Shown in pieces: positions 2,162 to 54,669 of a stretch of DNA of 64,000 bases. Source of the stretch: Altererythrobacter lutimaris (GTDB lineage: Bacteria; Pseudomonadota; Alphaproteobacteria; Sphingomonadales; Sphingomonadaceae); the NCBI RefSeq assembly GCF_013371495.1, contig NZ_JABWTA010000001.1:1364001-1428000 (forward strand), read 5' to 3'. Made by a program: the position numbers and the translations under genes. The notes below the pieces were generated by a model. That model saw nothing but the letters and a program-made list of their open reading frames with translations. It was not told the DNA's origin and did not search any database. Position 1 is the stretch's first letter. Every line of letters begins with the position of its first letter.

Positions 2162-2357
2162 GGGGATCGGCTTTCCAGTAGAGGACGCTTGGTGGCAAGC
2201 TGCTGAATTGTAACATCTTGCATCACCGCGCTTGAACACCACATTACAACGCAAGCACACAGAATTAGCTCCCCAAACGCATGAGGCTTCCCTTTTTTCC
2301 CTCACGCGGCTATTGGGCGCGCCACTAACTCGGTTGAATACGTAGATAAGGAATTAC

Positions 2358-2627
2358 ATGGCCAAAGAAGAACTCCTCGAAATGCGCGGCAAGGTGGTCG
2401 AACTGCTGCCTAACGCGATGTTCCGGGTCGAGCTCGAAAACGGCCATGAGGTCCTCGGGCACACCGCCGGCAAGATGCGCAAGAACCGCATCCGTGTACT
2501 GGTGGGCGATGAAGTGCTGTGCGAACTCACGCCTTATGATTTGACCAAAGCGCGGATCACCTATCGCTTTATGCCGGGCCGTGGCGGCCCTGGGCAAAAT
2601 GCCTCTCAGGGCCCTGGCCCACAATAA
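2358..2627 (+). CDS. infA: Translation initiation factor IF-1
   Basis: Small S1/OB-fold factor that binds the 30S A-site during initiation. The first 72 residues match IF-1 throughout (start [13 protein letters not shown], middle [17 protein letters not shown], end RITYRF). The protein is 89 residues because of a Gly/Pro/Gln-rich tail after RITYRF, whereas IF-1 is usually about 72. An AAGGA-type ribosome site lies about 8 nt before the ATG. It leads a plus-strand cluster with maf, an RNase E/G-like gene and yacG. Confidence 0.97.
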
Positions 2628-2658
2628 TCGGTGGCGCTGAGTGGGCGCTGCTGACCCC

Positions 2659-3222
2659 ATGCAACTTATCCTCGCATCTGCTTCGCCGCGTCGGCGAGAA
2701 CTGATAGCGCGTCTCGGGCTCGAGCCTTCTGGGATTGCGCCTGCTGACATTGACGAAACGCCGCAAAAGGGCGAACTTCCGCGCGATTATGCACAGCGCA
2801 TGGCACGCGAGAAAGCGCTCGCAGTGAATGCGGAAGGCCATGTGCTAGCAGGCGACACGGTTGTTGCCGCGGGACGACGTATTCTGCCCAAAGCCGAGGA
2901 CGAAGCGACCGCACGCCAGTGCTTGGATATACTTTCAGGTCGCCGCCATCGCGTGTTGTCTGCGATTGCATTGAAAGCGCCCGATGGAACCGTGCGAGAG
3001 CGCCTTTCCGATACAATCGTGCGCTTCAAACGGCTCTCGACTGAAGAAATCGCGTCATACCTCGCAAGCGGCGAATGGGAAGGCAAAGCAGGCGGCTATG
3101 CCATTCAGGGCGCAGCGGAGGGGCTGATCCAGCGTATCGATGGGAGCCATTCCGGCGTGGTTGGCCTACCGCTCTATGAAACGCGAGCGCTTTTAAAAGC
3201 GGCAGGGTTCAAAATTGGCTGA
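2659..3222 (+). CDS. maf: Maf-family nucleotide pyrophosphatase
   Basis: Maf/HAM1-like nucleoside triphosphate pyrophosphatase that hydrolyses non-canonical or methylated NTPs. It shows the family start LILASASPRRRELI, the catalytic-region motif LAGDTVV, and the GKAGGYAIQG and SGVVGLPLYE signatures near the C-terminus. I place the start at the ATG at 2659 because the family begins at MxLILASASPRR. An in-frame GTG at 2641 would add six residues and is possible. The stop overlaps the TTG start of the next gene by 8 nt, implying translational coupling. Confidence 0.93.
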   Translation: MQLILASASPRRRELIARLGLEPSGIAPADIDETPQKGELPRDYAQRMAREKALAVNAEGHVLAGDTVVAAGRRILPKAEDEATARQCLDILSGRRHRVLSAIALKAPDGTVRERLSDTIVRFKRLSTEEIASYLASGEWEGKAGGYAIQGAAEGLIQRIDGSHSGVVGLPLYETRALLKAAGFKIG

Positions 3223-4171
3223 GTGGCTGATCGAAGACGGCATTGGCGAACGCCGTGCGCTTCTGGTCGATGGCGAAGACGTTCTGGCAGCGAAGCTCAT
3301 TTGGCCGGGCGAATTGGCTGCAGGCGAGCTGGTCGATGCGCGCCTCACTTCCAAAACATCCGGTGCGCGCCGCGGGCTTGCTGTAACAGGCAAGGGGCAG
3401 GAACTGCTCGTCGATCATCTGCCAGCTGATGTCACGGAAGGCGAGACAATCAAGCTTACCGTCACCCGCGCACCCATTGCAGAGCGTGGCCGCTTCAAGC
3501 ATGCACAAGGGCGGGTCGTTAGAGAGGCAGTTCAAGAGTCTCCGCTATGGCTGGAACAGGCGACTACGGTTCGCGCATTCTCGCCGGATCATTGGGACGA
3601 GATCTGGCATACGGCATCATCAGGCGAAGTGGCCTTCGACGGCGGCTCGCTGTTGTTCAGCGTGACCCCTGCGATGACATTGATCGATGTCGATGGAGAA
3701 GGAAGTCCGCGTGACGTGGCTCTGGCCGCAGTGCCGGCCATCGCTCGCTGGCTTTCGCTATTTGACCTCGGCGGCAATATCGGGATCGATTTTCCGACCA
3801 TCGAAGCGAAAACGGACCGGAAAGCCGTGGACAGCGCGCTGGCTGACGCGCTTGATCACTGGCCGCATGAACGCACGGCAATGAATGGCTTTGGCTTTGT
3901 TCAACTCGTCGCCCGACTCGAGGGGCCCTCATTGCTGCATCGTTTCGCGACTTCTCGCACGGGGATGTGCGCAAGGATGGCACTCCGTCAGGCTGAGCGT
4001 GCCTCAGGAAACGGGAATACTCTGCTTCTGAGAGTGCACCCTGCCCTTAAGGCCAAGCTCAAACCGGATTGGATTGACGAACTTGTCCGGCGCAGCGGTC
4101 GAAAAGTAGAGATTGAGACAGATCCGGGCCTTGCGCTCGAAACACCTCAAGCCCAGATTATCGACCAATGA
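3215..4171 (+). CDS. Short RNase E/G-family protein
   Basis: A 318-residue relative of the catalytic region of RNase E/G. Residues about 30-110 resemble the S1-containing front part. IGIDFPT at about 187-193 corresponds to the Mg-binding IDF motif of RNase E/G, and HERTAMNGFGFVQLVAR corresponds to the following NDRA...GLLEMSR block. The second metal-ligand Asp appears to be Glu here, and no CPxC zinc-link motif follows, so tetramerisation as in RNase E looks unlikely. It starts at TTG 3215 inside maf and overlaps yacG by 4 nt (ATGA). The maf / RNase-like / yacG order is familiar in alphaproteobacteria. Substrate unknown. Confidence 0.8.
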   Translation: MAEWLIEDGIGERRALLVDGEDVLAAKLIWPGELAAGELVDARLTSKTSGARRGLAVTGKGQELLVDHLPADVTEGETIKLTVTRAPIAERGRFKHAQGRVVREAVQESPLWLEQATTVRAFSPDHWDEIWHTASSGEVAFDGGSLLFSVTPAMTLIDVDGEGSPRDVALAAVPAIARWLSLFDLGGNIGIDFPTIEAKTDRKAVDSALADALDHWPHERTAMNGFGFVQLVARLEGPSLLHRFATSRTGMCARMALRQAERASGNGNTLLLRVHPALKAKLKPDWIDELVRRSGRKVEIETDPGLALETPQAQIIDQ

Positions 4172-4389
4172 CCTCACGCAAACTTTGCCCCATCTGCAAG
4201 AAACCTCGCGACCACGCGCTCAAGCAGCGAAGCGGTAGCGCAAAAGAGAATCCGTTCGCTCCATTCTGCTCCAGCCGCTGCAAGGACCGCGATCTCGCGC
4301 GGTGGTTTGGCGATGGCTATGCAGTGCCCGGAAGACCGGCAAGTCCGGAAGAGATCGCTGGCGAAATCGTACGCGAAGAGCACGACTGA
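4168..4389 (+). CDS. yacG: DNA gyrase inhibitor YacG
   Basis: A 73-residue zinc-binding protein with CPICKKP near the N-terminus and CSSRCKDRDLARW in the middle, the C-x2-C / C-x3-C ligand set of YacG. In E. coli the protein binds GyrB and inhibits gyrase. The ATG overlaps the stop of the RNase E/G-like gene by 4 nt, so it is the last gene of this cluster. The acidic C-terminal tail ending REEHD is in line with the family. Confidence 0.92.
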   Translation: MTSRKLCPICKKPRDHALKQRSGSAKENPFAPFCSSRCKDRDLARWFGDGYAVPGRPASPEEIAGEIVREEHD

Positions 4390-4487
4390 GATTCCCGCCA
4401 ATTGGCACTTGCCAAAGCGCGTCTGCCACGCCATAGGGCGGCGCTCCAACCGCGCGCGGCCATATCTGATACCGCGCTCGCATGGAT

Positions 4488-4563
4488 GCCTCGGTAGCTC
4501 AGTTGGTAGAGCATACGACTGAAAATCGTAGTGTCGGTGGTTCGATCCCGCCCCGAGGCACCA
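4488..4563 (+). tRNA. tRNA-Phe (GAA)
   Basis: A full 76-nt cloverleaf including encoded CCA. The 7-bp acceptor stem pairs 4488-4494 with 4553-4559. A D-arm with AGTTGGTA loop, a 5-bp anticodon stem with loop CTGAAAA giving anticodon GAA, and a T-arm with loop TTCGATC are all present. A short T run follows at about 4566. The downstream block to 7.7 kb is A+T-richer than the surroundings. Confidence 0.98.
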
Positions 4564-4679
4564 CCTTTTTCTAACGGTGCTGAGAGTTAGACCCGGCGAA
4601 TGGGCAGGTCTCTGCTAAACCTTGCTGGTTTTCGGCTCCAACTTCGTCAGGCCTGCGTGCTTATGCTCGCCCTGGAGAC

Positions 4680-5321
4680 TTAGGCTTGGAAGTCAGCCGA
4701 CGATCCAAAAACGCCGGCTTCGAATTGATCCCCGGCCCATTGATGGATTTCGTAGTCACGAGCATATCTTTCCGCGATCTGATCCCTTGCGGCAAGGAAA
4801 CTTTCGTCTGTTTCGATAACCGGACTTGCATTTAGTTTCTTTGGGACAACCCCGCCGGCATCATAGCGGACTGCCATGTGCTTGAGCCCTTCTTCTAGAC
4901 GCTCGAATGGAATGAGTGCATCACAGACAAGATTATCATTCTCATCTTCAAATTTGAGATGCTGCGGAATTACTTGAGAAAAGTTACGCGCACACCAGTC
5001 ATCCAAGAATTCTTCAAAGTTCATATTGCCTGTATACAACCTCGGATCAGCGGCAAAATTCTCATGCCTATGGGACTTATACAAACTCCACAGCCAATCG
5101 CGCGGTTCACGGATAACGCCCCAAACAAAGAACTCATCGAAAGGTATTTTCTCAAATAGCCAGGCGAACTTTTGCTTAATCTGGTGAACAGCGTCGTGCT
5201 TCCCCCATTCGGATCGAACGATCCTGATGTCTGCCATATGCTGAAACATGTTCTCGACGCTCGTCGAACCGGTTTTCAACCCAGCAACAAATATGATCTT
5301 TCGCTTGATATCGATTAGCAT
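4680..5321 (-). CDS. Sulfotransferase-family protein
   Basis: A 213-residue cytosolic protein with the PAPS-dependent sulfotransferase signature. The 5'-phosphosulfate loop is AGLKTGSTSVENMF at about residues 13-26, and the 3'-phosphate motif is VIREPRDWLWSLY at about 69-81. It would transfer sulfate from PAPS to an unknown acceptor, perhaps a glycan made with the neighbouring glycosyltransferase. It lies 63 nt downstream of that gene in the same direction. Base composition is lower in GC than the flanks, suggesting transfer. The ribosome site is weak. Confidence 0.8.
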   Translation of the reverse strand: MLIDIKRKIIFVAGLKTGSTSVENMFQHMADIRIVRSEWGKHDAVHQIKQKFAWLFEKIPFDEFFVWGVIREPRDWLWSLYKSHRHENFAADPRLYTGNMNFEEFLDDWCARNFSQVIPQHLKFEDENDNLVCDALIPFERLEEGLKHMAVRYDAGGVVPKKLNASPVIETDESFLAARDQIAERYARDYEIHQWAGDQFEAGVFGSSADFQA

Positions 5322-5384
5322 GGTTGATTCTCTGATATTGAAACACTGCAGAGGACGCCGACATATTGGAAGTCGATTCAGACT

Positions 5385-7727
5385 CTATTTCCTTCCTCCT
5401 TCACGAAAGGCCCCTATCCTGTCGAGATTTCCAATCGTCACCGCCTCAATGAAATCGAGGCGCATTACTGGGTCCGCCGGGAAATAGAGCAAGAAGCCCT
5501 CGACAAAATAGGTGGGTCTGGTCCCATTACGGTTTCTATGCGCATTGAATTCTACTACGTAGCTTGAACCAGCCTCCGAAGGTGAAATTTCCAGCTGAAC
5601 CCATTTCTCCTTACCGCTAGGTAGTTCCCCATCGATCACACGGTCATCAACCACAATGGAATAGTGACAAAGTGCATTCTCATCGCCACGCAGCTTGATC
5701 ATCAGACTCAAGCCCTCGTGAGGCTCATTCAGGCGAAAGCTTAGCTGACCCTGTGCATCCTTAACCCGGCAACCCCTCTCCTCTGGCCAATACCACCCAA
5801 GACCGGATCGATATGTCTCGGCAGAACGCATGCCCGTCCAAACGTGCCTTGACGTATTTCGGGTCAGAGAATGCCAGTGCCCTATGTACGCTTCCGGGGC
5901 GCTTAGCTCATCCTCCGACTTATGAGCGGTTCTGTCCTGCTGCGCTTGAAAAGAACTCAATTGAGAAACAATCTGGTTCGCTAATTCAGACCATGTCCTA
6001 GGGGAATATTCGTCAGCGATACGCTCCTCAAGCTGAGTAAGGTATTCATCGTCAGTGACTAGTCGCTCGGCTTTCGCAAAAAGATCTTCAGCATTGCCAG
6101 ATTCTGCATAGACTGCGAACTCACCGCCGGCTTCAGGAAGTGAGGCTGCATCCGACGCTAGGGGTACCCTGCCGTAACAAAGCGACTCTGTTACAGGCAG
6201 ACCCCATCCTTCATAGACGCTTGGATAAAGTGTGAAGCGGCAATTCTTATAAAGAAGGCCCAGCTCTGCATCTGACAATCCAGAAAGCATAAGAACATTA
6301 TCCTTGAGCGCCATATCCGAATCGAGCTGGTCATAAATCTCGTCGTTCAGCCATCCGCGATTTCCGACACACACGAGCTTGGGCACATTGGAAACACCGA
6401 GCTTGTCGATCAGTTTGGACCAAGCTTCAAACGCAAAGAGATGACCTTTTCTAGACTCGATCGTGGACACGAAAAGGACAAACTTGCCAGGTTCGAGTTG
6501 CCAATCTTCCAGCCTGTTGAGCTGCGCCAGCGTGCTTGCATCTTTTCTAAAGTCGCTATCCAATGGAATGACGGCGATGCTTTCATCCTTAACTTCATGA
6601 CCGAGCAATGAAGCGACCCCTCTAAGATCTTTTGCCGTGTACTCAGAATTGACTAAAAAATAGTCAGCGTGATCGAATACACCTAAAGCCCAGCTGATAA
6701 AGTCTTGTGTCAGTTCACGTGTACAATGCTCCGATGCCATTATTGGGATCATGTCATGAACAAATGGGATGTATTTAATGCCTCGCGTGGCCTTGGCATG
6801 GCGCACGTAAAGGAAGTAGTTTTGCAACCACCAACTCGTTCCCAGATTTACAAGTGTCGCACCGCGCGGAAATGTAAACGGAGGGCTCAGTGTTAATCCC
6901 AATTGCAGGTCAGACAGGAGAGCTTCCCATTTCACTTCGTCCTCTTCCCCACCTGCCACGGCAAGTTCACACAACTGAGTGAACATAGATGTTGGAACAC
7001 TCAGCCATTCATCGCGACCTTGCGTAAAACAGCACAGCATTACAGCTTCACTATTTCCAGTATCTAAGGCAGCTATGATTGTTTCGATCTGAACTCGCTG
7101 AATGCCTGTAGGTAACCTGGCGTTACGCCAGTAGGATACGAGATCGGATATATCGAAGACTACTGTGTCATAGCGAGCTTGGTCAGCGTCCAGGTCGTGC
7201 CGCTGAAGCGACAGCTGCCTACGACTGATCTCTCGCAAACGGCTTAAAAGGGGGGCTTCTAATTCACGTTCCGGAAACTGATGGATCAGCTCACTCAGAG
7301 CTGAGCTGCCTCCATGACGAGCTTGCCGTGACAGCAAGTCGAGCAACTCCTCCTCTTCGCGCGGGGCATCCAGTCCAACGTGGCAAGCCGCCAAGAAGTG
7401 TTCGATTGCTATTTCGAATTTTCCAAGATTCTTAGCCGCATGTGCTGCGTGAACCAGTGTCTCAGTATCTTCCGGATCTAACGCAATTGCTTCCTGATAT
7501 GCCCGCAATGCAAAGGACAAATCATCCTGCTCTTTCAATGCATGGCCAAGCTGCACCCAAATGTGGGCGAGGCTTGCATCTTGCTTCACCGCTTCAGTGT
7601 AATGTACCGCCGCACCCTTCCAATCCCCGGCATCGCGTGCTGAATCTCCCATTCGAATAGAAACCTGGAGAGGAGTCTCTGTGATCCGTTCGGCCGACTC
7701 TGCGGACTGTGTTTTCTTTTTGAACAT
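5385..7727 (-). CDS. TPR-containing GT4-family glycosyltransferase
   Basis: A 780-residue three-part protein. Residues about 20-130 form TPR-like helices (YTEAVKQD, YQEAIALDP). Residues about 190-600 form a GT-B, GT4-type glycosyltransferase with LPTGIQRV, VHDMIPI, LFVSTIESRKGH and the donor-binding YPSVYEGWGLPVTES. The last 150 or so residues are rich in predicted strands (HYSIVVDDRV, WVQLEIS) and may be a carbohydrate-binding or lectin-like domain; I do not recognise its family. No signal peptide. It is followed by the sulfotransferase gene, and both sit in the A+T-richer block beside tRNA-Phe. Confidence 0.85.
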   Translation of the reverse strand: MFKKKTQSAESAERITETPLQVSIRMGDSARDAGDWKGAAVHYTEAVKQDASLAHIWVQLGHALKEQDDLSFALRAYQEAIALDPEDTETLVHAAHAAKNLGKFEIAIEHFLAACHVGLDAPREEEELLDLLSRQARHGGSSALSELIHQFPERELEAPLLSRLREISRRQLSLQRHDLDADQARYDTVVFDISDLVSYWRNARLPTGIQRVQIETIIAALDTGNSEAVMLCCFTQGRDEWLSVPTSMFTQLCELAVAGGEEDEVKWEALLSDLQLGLTLSPPFTFPRGATLVNLGTSWWLQNYFLYVRHAKATRGIKYIPFVHDMIPIMASEHCTRELTQDFISWALGVFDHADYFLVNSEYTAKDLRGVASLLGHEVKDESIAVIPLDSDFRKDASTLAQLNRLEDWQLEPGKFVLFVSTIESRKGHLFAFEAWSKLIDKLGVSNVPKLVCVGNRGWLNDEIYDQLDSDMALKDNVLMLSGLSDAELGLLYKNCRFTLYPSVYEGWGLPVTESLCYGRVPLASDAASLPEAGGEFAVYAESGNAEDLFAKAERLVTDDEYLTQLEERIADEYSPRTWSELANQIVSQLSSFQAQQDRTAHKSEDELSAPEAYIGHWHSLTRNTSRHVWTGMRSAETYRSGLGWYWPEERGCRVKDAQGQLSFRLNEPHEGLSLMIKLRGDENALCHYSIVVDDRVIDGELPSGKEKWVQLEISPSEAGSSYVVEFNAHRNRNGTRPTYFVEGFLLYFPADPVMRLDFIEAVTIGNLDRIGAFREGGRK

Positions 7728-26249: not shown

Positions 26250-26384
26250 CGCGAATGCACGAAACTGCCCGGACCTTAGGAAAAAAATAAACTTTCCGAT
26301 TTATTCACCACAATTCGAGAGGCGATCTTCGCGTACTGCGGAGCGAGCCATGCAATCGTAGTGAAAGAATTCTGGGGGCGATCA

Positions 26385-27923
26385 ATGAGCGCATTCGGCA
26401 AAAAGACTGGACCTTCTGGCTTCAAGCCCGGAGCGCGTCCGTCTTTCGGTGTGGCAAAGCCCATGAAGGGCGGAGATCGCGGTTCTCCCAATGGTGAAGA
26501 TGAAGAAGGCGGAGAGCAGTTTCCGCCACTGCCTGATGGTGCTGCGGAAGCACCGGCAAAAAGCGCATCACAAGGTCGCGGAAACGCCACCGATGACGCG
26601 ATGAGCCGTCTGGCCGAGCGTATGAACTCGGTCGACAGCGGCGAATCCGAAGTTGGCGGCTTTGAAGCCAGCGTTCACAAGATCAAGGAACAGGTTCTTC
26701 CGCGTCTGCTCGAGCGCGTCGACCCAGAGGCGGCAGCGACGCTCACCAAAGAAGAACTGTCCGAAGAATTCCGCCCGATCATCATGGAAGTGCTGGCCGA
26801 GCTGAAGGTCACACTGAACCGCCGCGAGCAGTTTGCACTTGAAAAAGTCCTGATCGACGAGCTGCTGGGCTTCGGCCCCTTGGAAGAGCTCCTCAATGAC
26901 CCGGATATCTCCGATATCATGGTCAACGGTCCGCAGCAGACCTACATCGAGAAAAAGGGCCGTCTTGTTATCGCGCCGATCCAGTTCCGCGATGAACAAC
27001 ACCTTTTCCAGATCGCGCAGCGCATCGTGAACCAGGTCGGCCGCCGCGTCGACCAGACCACACCGCTTGCCGACGCCCGCTTGAAAGACGGCTCACGTGT
27101 GAACGTGATCGTACCGCCGCTCTCGCTAAAAGGCACTGCGATTTCCATTCGTAAGTTCTCCGAGAAACCGATCACCTTGGACATGCTCAAGGAATTCGGC
27201 TCGATGAGCGAGAAAATGTGTACCGCATTGAAGATCGCGGGCGCATGCCGGATGAACATCGTTATCTCAGGCGGTACGGGTTCAGGTAAAACCACCATGC
27301 TCAACGCTCTGTCGAAAATGATCGACCCGGGCGAGCGCGTGCTAACCATCGAGGACGCCGCGGAACTTCGCTTGCAACAGCCGCACTGGCTGCCGCTTGA
27401 AACGCGTCCGCCAAACCTTGAAGGCCAAGGCGCGATTACCATCGGCGACTTGGTCAAGAACGCTCTGCGTATGCGTCCTGACCGGATCATCCTGGGTGAG
27501 ATTCGTGGCGCGGAATGTTTTGACCTTCTCGCCGCTATGAACACGGGCCATGATGGCTCCATGTGTACGCTTCACGCCAACTCACCGCGTGAGTGTCTCG
27601 GCCGTATGGAAAACATGATCCTGATGGGTGACATCAAGATCCCTAAGGAAGCCATTTCACGCCAGATCGCAGAGTCAGTTGACCTGATCGTTCAGGTTAA
27701 GCGTTTGCGCGATGGTTCGCGTCGCACCACCAACATCACTGAAGTGATCGGGATGGAAGGCGATGTGATCGTGACGCAGGAGCTGTTCAAGTTCGAGTAT
27801 CTGGACGAAAGCGAAGACGGCAAGATCCTCGGCGAATTTCGCAGTCAGGGCCTGCGCCCTTACACACTGGAGAAAGCCCGCCAGTTCGGCTTCGACCAGG
27901 CGTATCTGGAAGCGTGTCTGTAG
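26385..27923 (+). CDS. cpaF: CpaF/TadA-type secretion ATPase
   Basis: 512-residue hexameric ATPase that drives Tad pilus assembly or type IV-like secretion. An N-terminal Gly/Pro/acidic low-complexity stretch (about 1-70) precedes the CpaF core. Walker A GGTGSGKTT is at about 297-305, the Walker B region is MRPDRIILGEIRG, and the His box MCTLHANSP follows. I chose the ATG at 26385 with GGGGG upstream over the GTG at 26361. No other pilus gene (cpaB, C, E, tadB, C) is adjacent, and a structured repeat begins directly after its stop codon. Confidence 0.93.
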   Translation: MSAFGKKTGPSGFKPGARPSFGVAKPMKGGDRGSPNGEDEEGGEQFPPLPDGAAEAPAKSASQGRGNATDDAMSRLAERMNSVDSGESEVGGFEASVHKIKEQVLPRLLERVDPEAAATLTKEELSEEFRPIIMEVLAELKVTLNRREQFALEKVLIDELLGFGPLEELLNDPDISDIMVNGPQQTYIEKKGRLVIAPIQFRDEQHLFQIAQRIVNQVGRRVDQTTPLADARLKDGSRVNVIVPPLSLKGTAISIRKFSEKPITLDMLKEFGSMSEKMCTALKIAGACRMNIVISGGTGSGKTTMLNALSKMIDPGERVLTIEDAAELRLQQPHWLPLETRPPNLEGQGAITIGDLVKNALRMRPDRIILGEIRGAECFDLLAAMNTGHDGSMCTLHANSPRECLGRMENMILMGDIKIPKEAISRQIAESVDLIVQVKRLRDGSRRTTNITEVIGMEGDVIVTQELFKFEYLDESEDGKILGEFRSQGLRPYTLEKARQFGFDQAYLEACL

Positions 27924-27926
27924 TTT

Positions 27927-28030
27927 GCTTTTCGCTCCGACACCCGTCGGAGCGTCCTCGCTAGATGCGCAGCAGGCTGCACCCGCTGCAGGCGGCCGGT
28001 CGGCCTTGCGGTTCGCTGAGCGCGGACCGT
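27927..28030 (+). repeat. Structured 3'-UTR element, copy A
   Basis: About 104 nt starting 4 nt after the cpaF stop. Hairpins in order: 27933-27954 (perfect 9-bp stem, loop ACCC), 27967-27982 (imperfect), 27994-28005 (GGCC/GGCC, loop GGTC), 28009-28029 (8-bp stem with one wobble). It aligns along its whole length with 52264-52366 on the minus strand, about 80% identical over the first 80 columns by hand, with compensatory changes in stems. No U tract follows, so it is not a typical intrinsic terminator. Confidence 0.75.
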
Positions 28031-28046
28031 GCTCCACGATTTCTCA

Positions 28047-28283
28047 TCAACTCACCAAGACCTTCGGCAGGCTCATCACCAACAATCCGCCACCGATAAT
28101 CATCGCGCCGACAAAGATGCCGAGCCACGGGACCCAGCCCACGCGCTTAATATCCTCGCGCTTTAAGCGGCGACGCTCCATTGTCCCGGCAATCGCGCCG
28201 ACAAGCACGAATGCGCAGCCGACAAGCGCCATAAGCTCGGCATCGCTCGCAAAGCGCAAATGTTGAAGCACACTATCCATCAC
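28047..28283 (-). CDS. Small two-TM membrane protein, unknown
   Basis: 78 residues with two hydrophobic segments (about 19-34 and 52-72) separated by a basic loop ERRRLKREDIKRVGW, so a hairpin membrane protein with a cytoplasmic basic loop is likely. I do not recognise the family. Codon use and the convergent placement against cpaF support a real gene. It starts at one of two consecutive ATGs and is divergent from the next transporter gene with only about 40 nt between. Confidence 0.65.
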   Translation of the reverse strand: MMDSVLQHLRFASDAELMALVGCAFVLVGAIAGTMERRRLKREDIKRVGWVPWLGIFVGAMIIGGGLLVMSLPKVLVS

Positions 28284-52217: not shown

Positions 52218-52252
52218 AGGGCCGCCAAGCATCACGCTTCGCGGCCCTTTTT
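52218..52252 (+). terminator. Intrinsic terminator after the PRC-barrel-like gene
   Basis: AGGGCCGC (52218-52225) pairs with GCGGCCCT (52241-52248), with an inner AAGC/GCTT pair and loop ATCAC, followed by TTTTT. It lies about 24 nt after the stop codon. Confidence 0.93.
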
Positions 52253-52263
52253 GTATCTGAAAG

Positions 52264-52366
52264 ACGGTCGCGATAGCGACCCAGAGGACGACCGTCCGCC
52301 CGCAACGGGTGCTGCTTTGGCAGCACGTCTAGTGAGGACGCTCCCACGGATGTGGGAGCGAAAAGC
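52264..52366 (-). repeat. Structured 3'-UTR element, copy B
   Basis: About 103 nt on the minus strand, beginning in the parC stop codon. In plus-strand coordinates hairpins lie at 52339-52360 (9-bp stem, 4-nt loop), 52309-52326 (7 bp), 52286-52297 (GGAC/GTCC) and 52266-52281 (6 bp, loop GATA). It aligns with copy A at 27927-28030, including shared unpaired segments GCGTCCTC and CTAGA. Stem pairs that differ between copies change on both arms. No U tract follows. Confidence 0.75.
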
Positions 52367-54669
52367 TAAAAAGTATTATCCTTGGGGAAGCCCTGTGGCG
52401 GTAACCGCCCTGCCCCGCCGCGCGCGACCTTCCACTGCCAGATTTCATTCTCCGTCCGTGTGCGGTCGCCCTTGCCACCCATCTGCCAGCTAAGGCCTTC
52501 CTCCAAAGTGAAAGTCTTCGCATCGCTGAGCCCGCCATCGCGGTAGCGCTGCAAGGTCACACCTTGTCCGCGCCCGAGTACAGGCACCTCTTCCAGATTG
52601 AAGACGACAAGCTTGCGATTGTCACCGACGCAGGCAACGTGATCGTGTTCAGCCGCAATCTCGCGCATCACTTGCAGCTTCGCGTCATTCTTCAGATTTA
52701 CGACTTGCTTGCCTTTCTTTGTTTCCGCGAGCAGCTCTTTCGTCTCCGCGACAAAGCCCTTTCCGATGGTTGAAGCCAGCAAAAGCCGCCCGCCATCCTG
52801 ATGCACGATCATGCCTGCGATGCGCGTTTCCGCCTCCAGATCGATCATCGACTGGATGGGCTCACCAAAGCCGCGCGCACCCGGCAATTTGTCACAGCCG
52901 AGCGTGTAGAAACGACCATTCTCGGCCGCGATCAAAATCTTGTCGGTGGTCTGGCAATGACTTGCAAAGGCAGCGCCGTCGCCTTCCTTATATTTGAAAT
53001 CACCGCAGCCATCTTCGCCCAAGTCGACATGGCCTTTCGCTGCGCGGATCCAACCTTTCTTGGAGAGAACGACAGTGACCGGCTCTTTCTCGATCATCGC
53101 ATCCATGGAGAACTCGACCGCAGGGGCGGCTTCCTCGATCCGCGTACGACGCGCGCCGAGATCGGTGTCCTCGGCATAATCCTTGCGCAGCGCCTTCAAG
53201 TCGCGCTTCAATCGCGTGCGCTGGCGCGCAGGACTGTCGAGCAGTTTCTGCAGCTCGTCCTGTTCTTCGAGCAGCGCGGTCTTCTCGTCGCGCAGCTGCA
53301 TTTCTTCAAGCTTGCGCAGGGACCGCAGCCGCATGTTGAGGATTGCCTCGGTCTGCCGGTCAGTGAGATTGAATTCCTTCATCATCACTGGCTTGGGCTC
53401 GTCCTCGGTACGGATGATCTCGATCACCCGGTCGAGATTGAGGAAGGCGATGATGTAGCCTTCGACCAGCTCCAGCCGCTTGGCGATCTGATCGAGCCGG
53501 TACTGTGTGCGCCGCTGCAGGATCTCGATCTGGCTTGCGACCCAGTTTTGGAGCAGCTCTTTCAGCCCCATCACCATCGGTGTGCGCGAGGCATCGAGCA
53601 CGTTGAGGTTCAAGCCGAAGCGCGTTTCCATGTCCGTCAGCTTGAAGATCGATTCCTTCAAGAGCTCCGGATCGACATTGCGGCTGCGCGGAACAAGCAC
53701 AATGCGGATCTGCTCGTCACTTTCATCGCGGACATCGTCCAGGATCGGCAGTTTTTTGTCCGCAATCGCCTGCGCGATTTGCTCGATGAGCTTGCCCTTC
53801 TGAACCTGATAGGGAATCTCTGAGATAACGAGCTGCCACTGCCCGCCGCCCAGCCGCTCTATTCCGGCTTCCTGATCGTCCTTCTTGTCCGCTTCGGGTG
53901 CATGAAAAACACCGCGCACACGGAAACTTCCGCGCCCGGTTGCATAGGCTTCAGCGATGCTTTCCTTGCTGTCGACTACATGACCGCCGGTCGCGAAGTC
54001 CGGCCCTTGGAACAGCTCCATCAGCCGCTCATGCTCGACATGCGGATTGTCGATCAGCTCGAGCGTCGCATCGATCACTTCAGCAACATTGTGCGAGGGG
54101 ATATTGGTCGCCATGCCAACCGCAATCCCGCTTGCCCCATTCGCCAGCAGGTTCGGAAACAGGCCCGGCATCAGCTCCGGCTCATGTTCCTCGCCATTAT
54201 AGGTCGGAATGAAGTCGACCGTGCCAGCATCCAGCCCTTCCATCAGCTGCATTGCAGTCTTGGTCAGGCGCGCCTCTGTGTAGCGATAGGCGGCGGCGTT
54301 ATCGCCGTCGATATTGCCGAAATTGCCTTGGCCCTCGACCAGCGGGTACCGCAGCGAGAAATCCTGCGCGAGCCGCACCATCGCATCATAAGCGGCGGTA
54401 TCGCCATGCGGGTGGTATTTACCGATCACTTCGCCGACGACGCGCGCGCTCTTCTTGAAAGTGCTGTCAGGCGCCAGCTTTAGCTGCCGCATGGTCCACA
54501 GCAAGCGGCGGTGGACCGGCTTCAAGCCATCGCGCAGATCGGGCAGCGAACGCGCGGTGATGGTCGAGAGCGCATAGACCAGATAGCGTTCTTCCAGCGC
54601 GGAATCGAACGGTGCATCGACGATCTGGTCGAAAGGATCTTCAGCAGGCAAATCGGTTACTTCTGACAT
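52366..54669 (-). CDS. parC: DNA topoisomerase IV subunit A
   Basis: 767 residues. The breakage-reunion domain shows [27 protein letters not shown], the [21 protein letters not shown] block and the catalytic Tyr in [16 protein letters not shown]-type [18 protein letters not shown] follows, then a coiled-coil region and a C-terminal beta-propeller-like domain with degenerate repeats. Decatenates daughter chromosomes with ParE (not in window). A structured repeat begins at its stop codon. Confidence 0.96.

Follow-up and report, generated by a model that had tools for sequence, protein, structure and literature searches.

The DNA analysed here (the window) is a stretch of 64,000 nucleotides on contig NZ_JABWTA010000001.1 of Altererythrobacter lutimaris. 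It carries two copies of an element of about 100 nt, termed copy A and copy B, which are located on opposite strands behind the stop codons of two protein-coding genes. The stop codon of the cpaF-like gene (TAG) occupies positions 27921-27923, and the stem of the first hairpin of copy A (H1, CGCTCCGAC/GTCGGAGCG) begins 9 nt on. The parC stop codon (TAG) is found at 52368-52366 on the minus strand, and the H1 stem of copy B (CGCTCCCAC/GTGGGAGCG) begins 5 nt on. By eye, each copy apparently lies between convergent genes. The positions of the elements, their host genes and their parts are listed in Table 1.

Table 1. Copies A and B of the element in the window, with their host genes and identified parts.
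Feature	Position	Strand	Basis
Copy A, whole element	27928..28029	+	model R1 match, 89.1 bits
Copy B, whole element	52265..52365	-	model R1 match, 94.4 bits
cpaF-like ATPase gene, T2SSE domain, host of copy A (start codon provisional)	26361..27923	+	ORF; Pfam PF00437, E 4e-60
parC, host of copy B (start codon provisional)	52366..54669	-	gene call; Pfam PF00521, E 4.2e-140
T-rich leader of copy A, TTTGCTTTT, between cpaF stop and H1	27924..27932	+	sequence
Copy A H1: 9-bp stem, loop ACCC	27933..27954	+	sequence
Copy A conserved linker TCCTCGCTAGA	27955..27965	+	sequence
Copy A H2: 6-bp stem including one C-A mismatch	27967..27982	+	sequence, alignment
Copy A H3: 4-bp stem GGCC/GGCC, loop GGTC	27994..28005	+	sequence, alignment
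Copy A H4: terminal stem	28009..28029	+	sequence, alignment
Copy B H1, loop ATCC	52339..52360	-	sequence
Copy B linker TCCTCACTAGA	52328..52338	-	sequence
Terminator-like hairpin GGGCCGC/GCGGCCC, weak T tail, downstream of copy B	52219..52247	-	by eye; consensus scan without it

The original prediction described a string of hairpins right after the cpaF stop codon, and its likeness over about 100 nt to a minus-strand segment after parC. Both are borne out, since blastn against the whole own genome aligns copy A with copy B at 79% identity over query positions 5-111 (E 1.9e-16), and an inverted-repeat search places the two at the top of 12 inverted pairs in the window, with arms of 50 nt that are 84% complementary. 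The stem differences between the copies are paired as had been stated: pair 7 of H1 changes from G-C in copy A to C-G in copy B, an A-T pair in H2 becomes T-A, and the H3 stem changes from GGCC/GGCC to GGAC/GTCC, with the joining segment TCCTC(G/A)CTAGA kept. The fold z-scores are -2.68 for copy A and -4.47 for copy B. In the lowest-energy fold of copy A, H1 is retained and H2-H4 are not formed as separate hairpins.

The two copies belong to a large family. In a blastn search with copy A, matches were found in 35 of the 37 genomes of the genus (own included) and in none of 24 genomes from other families of the order. Then, 23 copies were aligned, a five-helix structure was written by hand and the covariance model R1 was built from them. 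The next-best R1 match in the window scores 9.2 bits, to be compared with the scores of copies A and B in Table 1, which are partly by construction because both are in the training set. At a cut-off of E 0.01, R1 finds at least 17, 29, 31, 26, 43, 30, 22 and 56 matches in eight genomes of the genus (G000, G003, G009, G012, G021, G022, G026 and G031, respectively), where the counts are lower bounds, as 150 of the 2,211-7,667 first-look candidates were scored per genome. A chance resemblance of copies A and B is therefore rejected by the genome-wide blastn E value, the R1 copies in the eight genomes and the R1 scores in the window.

At 1e-4, with 20 candidates scored in each genome, R1 matches occur in 72 of 199 genomes and 37 of 91 genera of the family, many of them being single weak matches. 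In the order, 33 of 147 genomes match (the 147 include family members), 31 of which are of the same family; the two beyond it carry a single match apiece, at about 2e-5. When named genome records were scanned with a pattern, at least 119 stretches were obtained. Of these, 80 loci were listed, mostly from Erythrobacter, Qipengyuania, Aurantiacibacter, Alteraurantiacibacter, Porphyrobacter and unclassified Sphingomonadaceae or Alphaproteobacteria; one small contig among them is labelled Gammaproteobacteria and is perhaps misbinned. Copies A and B thus belong to a multicopy chromosomal interspersed repeat that is found in Sphingomonadaceae, by record names mostly in Erythrobacter and its relatives, and the searches of the own genome and, with a covariance model, of Sphingomonadales have borne out the dispersed family at gene ends that had been proposed from the window. 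A plasmid- or phage-borne element is not supported by the one copy compared with both collections (L334), which has no match in plasmid or phage records.

The unit of about 100 bp consists, in order, of a leader (TTTGTTTT), H1, the linker TCCTCGCTAGA or a subtype of it, H2, CCCGCTGCGGGC, H3, TTG and H4. H1 has 9 bp and a loop of ATCC or CTCC, and H3 has 4 bp and a loop of GGTC. Over 206 copies, TTTGTTTT is the consensus of the T-rich leader ahead of H1, the H1 loop is ATCC or CTCC in 175, and the linker is identical to TCCTCGCTAGA in 144 of the 206 H1-anchored copies. The first H1 pair is CG in 164 of the 206 and the second is GC in 179, as counted with an exact 9+4+9 frame before TCCTC and at least six Watson-Crick pairs, decayed copies being excluded. 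The loops and linkers are thus conserved parts set among variable stems. RNAalifold offers an alternative helix of the linker CTCGC with GCGGG, the columns of which are nearly invariant, so that they speak neither for nor against it. Neither the alignment of the copies nor the tallies of leaders and linkers show a conserved GTAG tag.

Could the unit be a dedicated structured RNA, such as a riboswitch, ribozyme or sRNA, or a protein-binding RNA, with a single conserved function? The conservation of the loops and linkers, set against the variability of the stems, would suit such an RNA. However, ten upstream proteins tested with Pfam are of unrelated families without a common function, namely T2SSE (cpaF), topoisomerase IV A (parC), a LytTR regulator, HIT, TrkA-N, ribosomal L1, SecD/SecF, NusG, AICARFT/IMPCHase and a HerA-type helicase. 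In Rfam, only a tRNA lies above the gathering threshold in the whole window, and no family was found for the element; the minus strand of copy A has weak sub-threshold Twister-sister and rmf scores, which do not recur in 12 other loci, where the sole match is a sub-threshold PreQ1-III. A known RNA family is accordingly not supported. The copy number and turnover of the units, moreover, fit repeats, and we regard a dedicated RNA as very improbable.

The pairing was assessed in two alignments. In the alignment A2, two-sided changes occur in 17 of 28 pairs and 91.6% of the cells pair; the covariation score is 0.456, whereas shuffles score 0.133 (sd 0.014) and slid partners do not exceed 0.113. 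The test favours the structure, however, as this was drawn from the same sequences. The second alignment (A4) is of nine orthologous copies from one junction, between the gene of a LytTR response regulator (assigned by Pfam from one genome's copy) and a gene that we take to be nadC from its N-terminal sequence. It comprises R1-type copies, with L297, L314, L300 and the R2 types left out. Here 98.4% of the cells pair, the score is 0.395 compared with 0.115, and 34 cells have two-sided changes, one has a one-sided change and four are unpaired; whole H1 arms differ among the orthologous copies. Since paired changes exceed the controls in A2 and in the nine orthologs, the pairing of the helices is real.

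The level at which the pairing is kept is another matter. Selection on a sense RNA predicts more G-U than A-C pairs. Among distinct stems, selected with the same frame and pairing requirement as the H1 pair counts above, the G-U and A-C cells number 25 and 41 in H1 (149 stems), 1 and 6 in H3 (42 stems) and 12 and 22 in H4 (140 stems), or 38 and 69 when pooled. For comparison, 24 tRNAs in the loci have 32 G-U and no A-C cells, a control built on ARAGORN brackets, in which the program itself may disfavour mismatches. Since copies that are related do not count as independent, and since a single A-C variant occurs repeatedly, we claim only that G-U is not in excess. Therefore, selection as sense RNA is not favoured, and of the RNA-structured repeat originally predicted, the hairpin architecture and the paired changes beyond shuffled and slid controls are supported, but selection as RNA is not.

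These counts bring in a rival explanation, in which the unit is a purely selfish DNA-hairpin repeat: the structure would matter as single-stranded DNA or as a palindrome, the arms would stay perfect through template switching or through gene conversion among copies, and the position at stop codons would reflect the insertion site or tolerance. Such a repeat would be in keeping with A-C being at least as common as G-U in all three helices, and with the whole-arm exchange of H1 and the scarcity of one-sided changes and unpaired cells among the nine orthologs. According to the available text of PMC8794818, template switching in DNA is a source of multibase compensatory changes.

The position of the units beside stop codons bears on this explanation in the other direction. 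Among the 117 R1 hits in the 80 loci, only the head end lies beside a stop codon in 46, only the tail end in 14, both in 8 and neither in 49. For the 74 hits listed of 116 matches in G000, G021 and G031, the corresponding numbers are 29, 6, 12 and 27. The two sets together comprise 191 hits, all distinct, with 75 head only, 20 tail only, 20 both and 76 neither. Sense docking thus prevails by about four to one, yet it is not strict, in part because the home-made gene caller is imperfect and misses genes (75% and 78% of bases called coding). A same-strand stop codon within 30 nt upstream was found for 54 of 117 hits in the 80 loci and the 5' end of an opposite-strand gene for 3, and the same comparison gives 41 and 2 for the 74 listed hits of the three genomes; it should be noted that this comparison overstates the orientation bias and that the head/tail control is fairer. 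For 82 (51%) of the 160 hits placed in a called gap, a same-strand stop codon is no more than 15 nt away, compared with 17% for a random place and strand in the same gaps; 123 of the 160 follow a same-strand gene, at a median distance of 7 nt. Neither the head-first excess nor this short distance would be expected from tolerance alone.

Many units are also paired. Within 1500 nt, neighbouring units in the 80 loci stand tail-to-tail in 30 cases, head-to-head in two and head-to-tail in four. The gaps of the tail-to-tail pairs range from 25 to 94 nt, and 19 of them fall at 30-38 nt; among the 150 matches listed for the eight genomes, another five such pairs have gaps of 33, 33, 34, 34 and 62 nt. 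By eye, the partner is often a lower-scoring unit of another subtype (the TCCTCGGTGC or CCTCAAGCGCCGG type). Opposed units at a regular spacing, as in BIMEs, are therefore seen in the tail-to-tail pairs. An IHF site in the spacer is ruled out as an exact consensus (0 of 21 pair spacers), and no common sequence is obvious across the 21. After the LytTR gene of G026 (L298), an R1 and an R2 unit follow each other head-to-tail within about 200 nt.

Both the position and the pairs raise the question of termination without a U tract, which had been offered as a possible role; paired units would then terminate bidirectionally. Apart from the location at gene ends and the tail-to-tail pairs with their narrow gap, the neighbouring genes would be consistent with it: where both neighbours were called, the gene downstream of a copy that follows a same-strand gene is convergent in 50 cases in the 80 loci and 29 in the three genomes, and co-directional in 23 and 21, a higher share of convergent neighbours than among the called genes of the 80 loci in general (166 convergent, 279 co-directional). 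However, these co-directional cases themselves speak against a strict terminator, as do the LytTR-nadC junctions, where nadC starts shortly past the unit in several genomes. Besides, the T run is upstream of the hairpins, not downstream, and of 79 copies, 4 have a separate intrinsic-terminator-like hairpin downstream and 4 have one upstream. Because of the co-directional placements and the terminator-like hairpins downstream of 4 of 79 copies, termination is doubtful as a sole role, and a strict terminator is disfavoured; we consider it improbable. A scan found no terminator-like site within copy A or B, and two minus-strand sites of this kind at 28119-28141, outside copy A. In L112, L119, L145 and L155 (4 of 79 copies), a terminator-like hairpin ends just ahead of the T-rich leader, and the unit may also insert after the T runs of terminators.

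How stable are the units at a given gene end? At the LytTR-nadC junction, for which 30 loci from 59 matching genomes were compared, with classes assigned partly by eye, a unit lies in sense at 18 of the 30 (8 R1, 8 R2 and, by eye, 2 variants, L300 and L314) and is reversed at 2 (L299 and L302, by eye). L304, L308 and L323 have apparent remnants, L316 and L324 have the stop and start codons overlapping as TGATG, and L303, L306, L309, L313 and L318 have other sequence, partly other repeats. The reversal in L299 and L302 shows that the unit is not tied to one orientation. No target-site duplication, as would be expected of a MITE with its terminal inverted repeats, is apparent at this junction. 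In L309 and L312, other palindromic repeats occur within 200 nt after the stop codon upstream of nadC, and one of them is like a CGTC REP.

At the cpaF 3' ends (30 loci from 58 matching genomes), the H3-core pattern is present in sense in 14 of 30, and in a 15th by eye; a reverse-strand pattern match, probably due to chance, occurs in 3 of the 30, and the R1 type is present in the own genome only among the 30. In L148, one of the named loci, a cpaF-like tail is followed by an R1 unit whose H1 arms differ considerably. By eye, the cpaF coding tail recurs after the element, which is of other subtypes there, in L269, L274, L278 and L283, in tandem in L274, which resembles a target duplication. 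In cpaF loci with another subtype (L271, L276, L278 and others in L259-L288), the last 6-8 coding bases reappear as their reverse complement directly past the stop codon, which is thereby enclosed in a hairpin. The arm of this stop-enclosing hairpin tracks synonymous codon changes between species within the first 30 nt after the stop codon, and the hairpin is absent from most of 23 copies of that subtype elsewhere.

Comparison of orthologous junctions therefore supports insertion at gene ends, as had been suggested, by the presence of the unit at some and its absence at others; units are gained, lost, inverted and swapped there, with exchange of modules. In addition, similarity is higher within genomes than between them (0.675 vs. 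0.639 for the full unit, permutation p 0.001, 71/74 copies), and by eye the H2 dialects differ among G000, G021 and G031. Gain, loss, inversion and genome dialects are as expected of a dispersing REP/BIME-like repeat. The dialects and the reversed units would suit the purely selfish DNA-hairpin repeat as well, which, weighed against the head-first docking close to stop codons, we regard as a substantial but less likely explanation.

The enzyme that would move the units was sought as the RAYT-type transposase family Y1_Tnp (PF01797), for which no match was found in any of the eight element-rich genomes; six matches are present in G002, a genome without a DNA match to copy A. A RAYT-mobilised REP is thus unsupported for these genomes, and because no mobilising enzyme was found in the search for PF01797, we infer the mobility of the units from their distribution. 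One might go further and suppose a mobile 3'-UTR cassette, whose spread is aimed at stop sites, mostly head first and without a REP-type transposase, which gives a hairpin tail to unrelated mRNAs and keeps its stems near-perfect by DNA-level copying between arms or copies. We put this forward as a speculation that is rather unlikely to hold.

On balance, the reading that we prefer, with modest confidence, is that of a repeat docked at stop codons, transcribed as 3' UTR and probably acting on mRNA ends. A unit typically sits next to a stop codon, in most cases in sense and with its head 0-15 nt past it, and it often faces another unit between convergent genes; transcription would be expected to make it the opening part of the 3' UTR. 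By analogy with the REPs of E. coli, the hairpin chain would most likely block 3'-to-5' exonucleases and, standing at the leading edge of the terminating ribosome, alter the stability or output of the upstream gene. A role in mRNA stability is, on the same analogy, possible. E. coli REPs within 15 nt of a stop codon are reported to stall ribosomes, according to the available part of PMC12306157.

The family adds an abundant modular repeat to a group for which single-hairpin REPs alone were met in the parts of the literature at hand. It also poses a puzzle: the units lie a few bases from stop codons, mostly in one orientation, and turn over rapidly, yet the usual REP transposase family was not found. 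More generally, compensatory change in the hairpins of bacterial intergenic regions, even where it is strong, is no proof of RNA selection, and the count of G-U versus A-C is a simple test for it.

No description of the repeat family was recognised in the open-licence literature, and the comparisons that follow are with the accessible portions of the papers cited. Like the units described here, the REPs and BIMEs of the GTAG class, which are linked to RAYTs, are multicopy extragenic palindromes, often paired and many of them near stop codons, and effects on mRNA stability, termination and ribosome stalling have been reported for them (PMC12306157; PMC5082802). In contrast, the present unit is a chain of four hairpins of about 100 bp, it has no conserved GTAG and no Y1_Tnp match in its element-rich genomes, and its pairs are predominantly tail-to-tail. 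The CGTC REPs of Alphaproteobacteria, including sphingomonads, resemble H1 in their stems of 8-9 bp and, in one family, a 4-nt loop, and no dedicated transposase is known for them (PMC3733652). However, their description is of a single stem that starts with A-T pairs and mostly carries an unpaired CCA tail, with dimers that are mostly head-to-head (PMC3733652), whereas H1 opens with C-G and G-C and is one of four hairpins; the two are set apart by description, not by consensus letters.

The BOX elements of Streptococcus are likewise modular interspersed repeats with a predicted RNA structure, and 36 of their copies reach into the extreme 3' end of a gene, whose stop codon they encode (PMC3049150). 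They have another host and other modules, and the unit described here follows the stop codon, the likeness drawn here being one of description. The mobile/repeat sequence candidates (MRSC) from surveys of intergenic RNAs are covarying structured repeats with dozens of copies per genome, too, but they were flagged especially for inconsistent gene orientation (PMC11109978), whereas the present repeat is sense-biased. Finally, RepRanger, which is hairpin-based, predicts 3,055 REPs in Erythrobacter cryptus; a four-hairpin unit is not among the features described for them in the accessible text (PMC12306157), and single hairpins of the present family may be among these predictions.
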